Assembly: GCA_027364735.1 (NCBI GenBank)
Contig: DAHXOT010000019.1
Span: forward strand, 1-64,000
Reading direction: 5' to 3'
Length of the DNA: 64,000 nucleotides
DNA from: Hydrotalea sp.
GTDB taxonomy: Bacteria > Bacteroidota > Bacteroidia > Chitinophagales > Chitinophagaceae
Below are positions 1-59,209 of this stretch, piece after piece. Made by a program: the position numbers and the translations under genes. The notes beneath the pieces were generated by a model that was not told the origin of the DNA, did not search any database, and saw only the letters and a list, made by a program, of their open reading frames with translations. The number at the start of each line of letters is the position of its first letter. Positions within the stretch are counted from its first letter, which is position 1.

Positions 1-22
1 AATAAGTATCTCTATTCGTTAT

Positions 23-57112: not shown

Positions 57113-57502
57113 ATGACTGATAATACTACAAGTGTCGCAGAGCTTCATTTTGATCATGAAGTCTGGACTTACGAGCTTAAATTTTGGAGAGAAGAATTGA
57201 AAATTTTTGAAAAGTATTTATCAAAAGTTGATTTGAAATCATTAAGTCGAGAAGCTTCCTCAGAGCTGGAACATTTTCAAAATCAATTCATTCATCACAA
57301 AAAAGTTGTTCATGATCTTATTCACGAAGCATCATCTAACGAAAAATTTTTAAATAACAATTTGGATATTTGGGGTAGTGAAGATATTAGAAAAATAAAG
57401 TTACAAGAGCATGTGGCATTAGAAGAACAAATGAATACTGCCAGAAAAATTTATATTGATTTAAAATCTGATTTTAGAACATGGTTGGCTAATAGATTAT
57501 AA
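57113..57502 (+). CDS. small helical protein of unknown function
   Basis: A 129-aa, charged, all-helical, probably coiled-coil protein: E-L-H-F-D-H-E-V-W-T-Y-E-L-K-F-W-R-E-E-L-K-I-F-E. No signal peptide or membrane segment. I recognise no family. It is a lone gene 118 bp after rnr, and its codon use looks like the neighbours. Confidence 0.6.
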   Translation: MTDNTTSVAELHFDHEVWTYELKFWREELKIFEKYLSKVDLKSLSREASSELEHFQNQFIHHKKVVHDLIHEASSNEKFLNNNLDIWGSEDIRKIKLQEHVALEEQMNTARKIYIDLKSDFRTWLANRL

Positions 57503-57617: not shown

Positions 57618-57654
57618 AAAAAACCTTATAACAATTTTGGTTATAAGGTTTTTT
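57618..57654. terminator. bidirectional intrinsic terminator, originally that of tRNA-Lys
   Basis: The arms 57618-57632 and 57640-57654 form a 15-bp perfect stem with a 7-nt loop and T-runs in both directions. It lies about 20 bp beyond the duplicated tRNA 3' end, just as the tRNA-Arg terminator lies 13 bp from its tRNA. Confidence 0.8.
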
Positions 57655-57674: not shown

Positions 57675-57697
57675 AAGTGATCCCGTTGTGATTCGAA
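57675..57697 (-). repeat. partial copy of the tRNA-Lys 3' end (att-like direct repeat)
   Basis: The 23 bases match 58188-58210 at 22 of 23 positions in the same orientation. The copy covers the 3' acceptor strand, the T stem and part of the T loop, and lacks the rest of the tRNA. This is the usual signature of integration at a tRNA gene. Confidence 0.75.
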
Positions 57698-57800
57698 ATA
57701 TATTATAACTAATTAATTAAGATGCAGTTATATATTACATTAAGTGAAGGTAGTGCTAATGGTAACACGTATAAATATTTAGTATTTCTTTTGGTTAACT

Positions 57801-57974
57801 TTATCCTTCATTTTCTAACCATTTTTTTAATTAAATTTTTACCGCATCAGATAATTCCTTTTTTTTAGAAACAGGTACTCGACAGGAAAAAGTAGTAGTC
57901 TTTTCTTTGTATTTAGGTTTTCGGCCTTGATTTCTGCCAGCTCCGCCCCTTGTTTCTTTTTTTAAATTATCCAC
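57801..57974 (-). pseudogene. short basic protein gene with an internal stop
   Basis: A GTG start at 57974 gives 47 aa (GAGRNQGRKPKYKEKTTTF and then C-R-V-P-V-S-K-K-K-E-L) to a TAA at 57831-57833. In frame beyond it the code continues L-K-K-W-L-E-N-E-G to a stop at 57801. The pattern G-R-K-P-K-Y-x-E-K-T-x-T-x-x-x-R-V-P-x-S-K resembles short basic proteins carried by plasmids and mobile elements of Bacteroidota and Cyanobacteria (from memory). The stop probably truncates it. Confidence 0.45.
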
Positions 57975-58065
57975 TTTGTTTTATTTTCTTTTTCGTTTGT
58001 ATGTTACGACAATAACAATAGGGGCAATGCCGTTTATTTCACGGTCTTTTCTATAATATGGTCTT

Positions 58066-58101
58066 ATAGCTGGTAACACTGGTATAGCTTTTGGTAACAC
58101 T
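58066..58101. repeat. tandem TGGTAACACT repeats inside the insertion
   Basis: TGGTAACACT occurs at 58071-58080 and 58092-58101, 21 bp apart (two helix turns), each preceded by ATAGCT. A third TGGTAACAC lies at 57760-57768 near the other end. They may be arm-type binding sites for an integrase. Confidence 0.55.
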
Positions 58102-58190
58102 AAATAAGTTATAAAACATGAAAAACACAAATAAAATAGCTAAAAAAATATTGAAAATCAATAAATAGCCCATTGAGAAAGGGGAAAAAG

Positions 58191-58263
58191 TGATCCCGTT
58201 GGGATTCGAACCCAAGACCCCAACATTAAAAGTGTTGTGCTCTACCAGCTGAGCTACGAGATC
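58191..58263 (-). tRNA. tRNA-Lys, anticodon TTT
   Basis: A cloverleaf of 73 nt: acceptor GATCTCG with CGGGATC, D arm AGCTCAGCTGGTAGAGC, anticodon stem CAACA/TGTTG with loop CTTTTAA, and T loop TTCGAAT. The discriminator is A and CCA is not encoded. No terminator follows directly, unlike tRNA-Arg; it is found beyond the 513-bp insertion. Confidence 0.95.
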
Positions 58264-58408: not shown

Positions 58409-59209
58409 ATGTTTACAGATAAAGTTGTAGTAATAACCGGAGGTTCTGAAGGCATTGGGAAAGCTTTGGTAGACGGGTTTTTAGCAATGGGAGCTAAAGT
58501 GGCAACTTGCGGCAGAAATTTTGATAAATTATATCAATTGCAGCAGTTACATGCCAATGAACCTTTAATGATACATACCGCCGATGTTAGTAAGGAAGTT
58601 GATTGTAAAAATTTTATAGAAAAAATTATTCAAACTTTTGGAACTATTGATATTTTAATTAATAATGCAGGTATTTCCATGCGATCGTTATTTGTTGATG
58701 TTGATTTAAGTACCATTAAACGTGTAATGGATATTAATTTTGGAGGAGTTGTAAATACTACTAAATATGCATTGCCCTATATTTTAAAAAACAAAGGTTC
58801 AATAGTGGCCGTATCATCTATTGCAGGATATAGAGGATTGCCGGGCAGAGCAGGGTATTCTGCATCGAAATTTGCCTTGAATGGTTTTATGGAAGCTTTG
58901 CGAACCGAATTGTTAGATACCGGCGTTAATGTAGTATGGGTTTGCCCTGGTTTTACAGCATCCAATATTCGTAATGCTGCATTAGATAAAAATGGAAATC
59001 CGCAAGGCGAAAGTCCTTTAGAAGAAAAAAAGCTAATGCCTGCCGATGTATGTGCTGCACACATTATTAAAGCAATAAGAAAGCGAAAACGTACTTTAGT
59101 ATTAACAGCCAATGGTAAACAAACAGTATTCTTAAATAAGTTTTTTCCCGCTTTAACAGATAGAATTGTAAAAATGTTTTTTTATAAGAATGGGGAATTG
59201 GTGAAATAA
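58409..59209 (+). CDS. short-chain dehydrogenase/reductase
   Basis: A classical SDR of 266 aa: T-G-G-S-E-G-I-G-K-A for NAD(P), N-N-A-G-I near 91, the catalytic Ser in V-S-S-I-A-G, and Y-S-A-S-K. The region G-Y-R-G-L-P-G-R-A resembles the DHRS7-like group acting on lipids or retinoids, but the substrate is unknown. A -7 element TATTTTTG is at 58379-58386. Confidence 0.87.
   Translation: MFTDKVVVITGGSEGIGKALVDGFLAMGAKVATCGRNFDKLYQLQQLHANEPLMIHTADVSKEVDCKNFIEKIIQTFGTIDILINNAGISMRSLFVDVDLSTIKRVMDINFGGVVNTTKYALPYILKNKGSIVAVSSIAGYRGLPGRAGYSASKFALNGFMEALRTELLDTGVNVVWVCPGFTASNIRNAALDKNGNPQGESPLEEKKLMPADVCAAHIIKAIRKRKRTLVLTANGKQTVFLNKFFPALTDRIVKMFFYKNGELVK

Follow-up and report, generated by a model that had tools for sequence, protein, structure and literature searches.

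Genomic islands in tRNA genes are recognised by Islander from an intact tDNA and a co-oriented, displaced 3' fragment downstream of it, the crossover lying in the T-arm or 3' end; its filters require an integrase and reject candidates under 2 kb, the accepted range being 2–200 kb (PMC4383910). Cis-mobilizable elements (CIMEs) are described as decayed ICEs or IMEs, without integration or transfer genes, that keep attL and attR (PMC5704250). Fragments of tRNA genes left by integration are illustrated in a third source by a 21.4-kb island (PMC9897764).

Here we describe a much smaller insert at a tRNA-Lys gene of Hydrotalea sp., located in a window of 64 kb, by which we mean the whole stretch of DNA analysed (Table 1). 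Like the islands described for Islander, the locus has an intact tDNA, a co-oriented displaced 3' fragment downstream and a T-arm/3'-end crossover, but the insert has no integrase gene and, at 513 bp, falls below the length range (PMC4383910). It shares with CIMEs, as these are defined there, the absence of integration and transfer genes and, at the level of sequence, the retention of attL and attR (cores plus candidate arm sites), but its only gene trace is of phage or plasmid type (PMC5704250). The displaced copy is a partial tRNA copy of the kind made by an integrating element, but unlike in the island given as the example, almost nothing lies between the tRNA gene and the fragment (PMC9897764). 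The several copies per genome typical of MITE-like elements were not seen, the insert being present once. We regard the insert as a real and well-bounded scar of an element integrated at tRNA-Lys, ordinary in kind and unusual in its small size, which looks like a CIME or a prophage remnant with the tDNA signature of a genomic island. The best explanation, to which we assign a probability of roughly 0.88, is that tRNA-Lys was the integration site of a tRNA-targeting element, most likely a temperate phage, which was then mostly deleted and left attL and attR behind.

Table 1. Features at and around the tRNA-Lys insert (positions in the window).
Feature	Position	Strand	Support or remark
tRNA-Lys, anticodon TTT, intact	58190..58263	-	ARAGORN and Rfam RF00005, 71.6 bits
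One att core: proximal 23-nt repeat, from the T-loop to slightly beyond the tRNA 3' end	58188..58210	-	
Other att core: displaced second copy with 1 mismatch, remnant of the original tRNA 3' end	57675..57697	-	
Foreign DNA between the cores, 490 nt (513 nt with one core)	57698..58187	-	Single copy
Original tRNA-Lys terminator, a perfect hairpin flanked by A and T runs	57618..57654	no strand	
Flanking SDR gene, outside the insert; marker of the orthologous site	58409..59209	+	PF00106; synteny
Flanking 129-codon ORF, outside the insert, without convincing family match	57113..57502	+	
Possible 5' stub of a lost integrase gene, Arm-DNA-bind_5-like peptide	57984..58058	-	Weak
47-codon ORF, GTG start, small phage/plasmid-borne family, premature in-frame TAA	57831..57974	-	
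Candidate arm-type integrase site, GTGTTACCA copy 1; distance to the proximal core 87 nt	58092..58100	-	Function inferred
Candidate arm-type site, GTGTTACCA copy 2; distance to the proximal core 108 nt	58071..58079	-	Function inferred
Candidate arm-type site, GTGTTACCA copy 3; distance to the distal core 62 nt	57760..57768	-	Function inferred

The direct repeat claimed by the first-pass annotation was recovered in both copies, 23 nt long with one mismatch and a spacing of 513, and the flanks are dissimilar on either side beyond these 23 nt. When the whole 2.77-Mb assembly was searched with the 21-nt tRNA-Lys 3' end, allowing one N and up to two mismatches, just two sites were found (58190 and 57677), and the reversed control pattern had no occurrence. 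The perfect terminator that had been placed behind the displaced copy is a 15-bp inverted repeat without a mismatch, located 20 nt past that copy and 535 nt from tRNA-Lys, and the A and T runs on its two sides make it usable in both directions. The terminator of tRNA-Arg, in the same window, lies 13 nt from its tRNA, as had been noted. The statement that the real tRNA-Lys has no terminator nearby stands for a strong one, which is 535 nt off, with one qualification: the consensus terminator scan detected a weak 5-bp hairpin within the tRNA-Lys 3' end, followed by CACTTTTTCC (58205–58193, minus strand), and with this hairpin and its T run some transcripts could end there. A scripted hairpin search found no T-tailed hairpin between tRNA-Lys and the old terminator, and a dedicated hairpin directly behind tRNA-Lys, of the kind present in the G154 island described below, is absent from the window. 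Up to an E value of 1, Rfam gave nothing besides tRNA between 50000 and 64000, and the insert showed no signal of RNA structure (z = 0.48). In its own genome (a 2.77-Mb draft assembly of 54 contigs), the insert is present in one copy and at no other tRNA gene; a second match (C50:43682) lies inside an ordinary gene of an apparent NADH-dehydrogenase cluster and was dismissed as chance.

To compare the locus with those of relatives, a search was made of 58 related genomes plus the own one, 59 in all, and 29 tRNA-Lys loci of relatives were taken from it (L004–L032). A T-tailed hairpin starts 0–23 nt behind tRNA-Lys in 27 of the 29, against 535 nt in the window; the sequences of L019 and L032 extend 118 and 68 nt behind the tRNA, respectively, and the hairpin falls within them. 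L004 and L006 are the sole relatives without a near terminator; other ORFs come next, and no tRNA fragment was found in either (60 kb and 15 kb, respectively). Within the downstream sequence compared, up to 1500 nt per locus, a second tRNA 3' end occurred in L029 alone, which carries tandem tRNA-Lys copies. In this locus (L029 of G010, 1494–2496), several tRNA-Lys copies with a degenerate 5' half lie in 160-nt tandem repeats, and arrays of exact tRNA-Lys 3' ends were seen in G010 (five), G132 (six) and G078 (three consecutive), at spacings of ~160–800 nt. The frames directly behind the tRNA-Lys terminator in L020, L032, L060 and L088 look alike by eye, with MPxxYILYS-like starts.

All 14 informative loci in which tRNA-Lys and the SDR gene diverge as in the window lack the insert and so show the empty site of a tRNA-integrated element; none of them comes from the same genus. 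Seven of these loci (L004, L007, L011, L023, L024, L029, L032) belong to the 29 taken, and the other seven (L052–L058, titled Chitinophagaceae, Sediminibacterium or Bacteroidetes) came from 51 loci of a genome-contig scan. L008 was left out as its tRNA-Lys runs in the same direction as the nearby SDR gene, as were L059–L061 and L088, in which the two are also co-directional; L062–L087 have no tRNA-Lys within the stretch examined, and the count excludes L089–L102. The longest word common to the insert and any of the 14 loci was 10–14 nt. The terminator begins 0–34 nt behind the tRNA in 13 of the 14, with L004 as the exception (those of L052 and L057, 22 nt behind the tRNA, were read by eye), showing the uninterrupted tRNA-terminator junction that had been proposed as a check. 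The closest of these loci, L052 and L053, encode SDR proteins 81% and 80% identical to that of the window. When the flanks of the window are joined, they give the tRNA, a 22-nt spacer and the CCTTATAA stem, an arrangement much like that of L024, whose stem behind tRNA-Lys resembles the hairpin now displaced. Neither outcome that was to count against the proposal, an insert conserved in relatives with no empty-site version or a repeat arising by chance, was encountered, the relatives compared all being from outside the genus. In the one same-genus genome compared (G001; lpxK 96% identical), the contig ends inside rnr, before the tRNA-Lys site. One more divergent locus, with the SDR gene as neighbour (L119, G105:C167:1), is uninformative on the insert, since its contig breaks off precisely where tRNA-Lys ends; this contig end looks as if the assembly had been broken by an att repeat.

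Larger elements at sites of this kind, which the first-pass annotation had named as another possible confirmation, do exist. In G154, a whole tRNA-Lys is followed 30,010 nt downstream by a 25-nt fragment that starts at the same TTCGA, with a 30-kb island in between and a hairpin beyond the distal fragment. This island resembles the window in its tRNA, in the start of the repeat, in the hairpin beyond the distal copy and in short direct repeats near both ends, but it is 30 kb long, has another repeat sequence and a hairpin of its own immediately after the tRNA, and a relative of the insert's ORF was not found in it. The first ORF of the island, with 113 codons, is similar to an integrase arm-binding domain at an E value of 0.042, below the Pfam cut-off, and no catalytic integrase part was recognised behind it by eye, so the integrase of the island seems decayed. 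The island (L122–L123, G154:C8:241300–271800) also contains two very long ORFs of 3143 and 2468 codons.

A scan of viral contigs yielded 23 stretches with a tRNA-Lys 3' end. Two of them (L268, L276) have only a tRNA-Lys fragment, which starts at TTCGA or no more than ~2 nt from it, and a full tyrosine integrase adjoins it. A longer fragment, reaching up to the anticodon loop by eye, is present in L271, and in L260 and L275 a tRNA-Lys precedes an integrase gene of the same orientation. The remaining stretches mostly contain a whole or near-whole tRNA, and some resemble phage tRNA genes. Four further genomes (G148, G122, G003, G030) were rejected as carriers of tRNA-Lys islands, since both copies in each are whole tRNA genes and thus not the signature. 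G154 and the viral contigs have the site in common with the insert, but not its sequence, and the 23-nt core pattern had no match in the viral contigs. No long match to the insert was found in phages or plasmids, nor in the 58 relatives among the matches listed, and the searches of phages, plasmids, viral contigs and relatives did not retrieve a parent element.

No integrase gene was present among the ORFs of the insert, in agreement with the original claim, and all PF00589 matches of the own genome lie elsewhere. A nuance is a peptide frame at ~57984–58058 (minus strand), which may represent the first codons of a lost integrase but is suggestive only. Against a home-made profile of ten integrase N-termini, this peptide scored 4.8 bits, a score equalled or beaten by 6 of 2000 shuffles and by one of the other 684 peptides of the window. 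It had no match in Pfam, and its matches to plasmids and phages were at E values of 8–9 only. The frame occupies the same strand, 130–204 nt past the core; in L268 and G154, the integrase frame starts about 160 nt behind the core. The stub was noticed before being tested, so we treat it as a lead and not as a result.

The gene trace in the insert is one small gene with relatives in viral contigs but also on plasmids. Its family has the pattern KYKExTTTxSxRVPxSKK...KLxEW, and the family-like frame runs nine codons past the premature TAA, to about 57801; the family also has intact members. Two alignments were used in the family search, of which A1 gave no match in viral or genome contigs and A2 gave four viral loci. 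The four viral contigs include L116, with terminase and portal genes, L117, with a major head gene, and L115, with replication genes, and a weaker relative was found in Flavobacterium phage FCL-2. With 58 codons and no defined start, the L115 frame is short as well, so the ORF in the window is not evidently cut at its start. Two H. hydrossis plasmids carry three copies, which form a repeated two-gene pair of 117 and 82 codons (L038 5797–6441, L039 5797–6442, L114 3665–4309). Among 294 family and 395 phylum genomes, both counts including the own genome, the ORF occurred in the own genome only.

Tyrosine integrases bind arm-type sites, which are direct repeats on both sides of the core. The motif GTGTTACCA is present in the insert in three copies of a single orientation and nowhere else in the window, and we consider these copies probable arm-type integrase sites. 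A 9-mer with at least four G+C was present three times in 1 of 2000 dinucleotide shuffles. Without the G+C condition, which was set once the repeat had been seen, 199 of 2000 shuffles had a 9-mer three times, so this condition matters. The motif AATCGAC, with four copies in the 30.5 kb of the G154 island, two near each end, is an independent parallel. In L268, the 8-mer GTGCCAGT occurs once on each side of the core amid several chance-like shared 8-mers and alone proves nothing. The pair GTGTTACCA-8..16-GTGTTACCA was found in 7 of 394 family genomes including the own one (reversed control, 2) and in at least 120 stretches of viral contigs. At the six other family loci no tRNA and no integrase was recognised by eye, so the arm motif yielded no parent. 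The tyrosine recombinases at C53 and C18 of the own genome were rejected as the cognate integrase because the first 14 kb of either contig contain no GTGTTACCA, and that at C18 sits at tRNA-Phe. The C18 locus (L046, G000:C18:1–14000) has tRNA-Phe at the contig edge, then a 431-codon tyrosine integrase and, 4.6 kb in, a second, short integrase ORF of 189 codons, and is another tRNA-borne element of this genome. The C53 locus (L045, G000:C53:4147–5289) encodes a 380-codon integrase with, in our own reading, excisionase-like and replication-like neighbours and an adjacent mnmE-like gene.

Three other histories could produce a short insert between two copies of a tRNA end. The 513 bp and its two att sites might be a non-autonomous mobile unit placed by an integrase acting in trans; in favour of this are the seemingly complete att ends and probable arm sites and the lack of an integrase gene in the insert. 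This is highly improbable in our view: the genome has one copy, the matches listed for the 58 relatives contain short pieces of the insert only, and the broken phage-type gene and possible integrase stub suit deletion in place. The candidate arm sites, together with the prematurely stopped phage-type gene and the possible stub, thus point to a deletion remnant and not to a free-standing mini-element.

A slimmer chance still goes to an assembly artefact, in which a longer prophage is present and the assembler joined across it. The assembly is a draft of 54 contigs, and repeats common to a lost prophage stretch would be invisible in it, but the cores and the 490 nt between them lie well inside a 134-kb contig, direct repeats between 56500 and 59500 do not exceed 23 nt, and the assembly contains no long second match to the insert that could be a misplaced prophage end. 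Least probable of all is a decayed tandem duplication, with the distal copy as the leftover of a second tRNA-Lys gene. Tandem tRNA-Lys copies are known in the family (L029 of G010, L060), but the similarity here extends exactly from the T-loop to 2 nt past the tRNA, nothing recognisable is left of the other 50 nt, no second terminator copy stands behind the intact tRNA, and the insert holds a foreign phage-type gene.

For an integrated and then largely deleted element, the following course may be proposed. The attP of an integrative element with a Bacteroidota-type tyrosine integrase most likely recombined with the tRNA-Lys 3' end, between the T-loop and the 3' end, restoring tRNA-Lys and shifting the old 3' end and terminator to the far side. 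That a native tRNA-terminator unit was split in this way, as initially suggested, is supported by the empty sites and the same-site elements; together with the repeat, they show the integration step as directly as sequence can. We infer a later internal deletion because the insert is small, lacks an integrase and holds a broken gene. The deletion would have taken nearly the whole element, perhaps running from close to the beginning of the integrase gene to a point beside the small phage gene, and both att cores and the probable arm-type sites would have survived. The scar that is left has no integrase and is unable to move alone. Since tRNA-Lys has lost its close strong terminator, its transcription presumably continues, at least in part, across the insert to the old terminator, and such read-through would take in the broken ORF, which lies on the tRNA-Lys strand.

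With two compatible att sites and their candidate arm sites, the 513-bp cassette might still be a working substrate that an incoming integrase of the same specificity could excise, but we think this rather unlikely. If it were so, a new element could alternatively integrate into the cassette in tandem, and the locus would be a natural att cassette of nearly minimal length, in a size range removed by the published Islander filters. On the preferred reading of a deletion scar, a tRNA-integrated element can shrink to little beyond its two att sites and stay recognisable by three marks, namely the tRNA-end repeat, the displaced terminator and the arm-type-like repeats. Of these marks, the displaced terminator offers a simple added signal for short, integrase-less scars, which Islander drops by design. 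The tRNA-Lys gene, left without a close terminator, is a natural case for the study of tRNA ending and processing.
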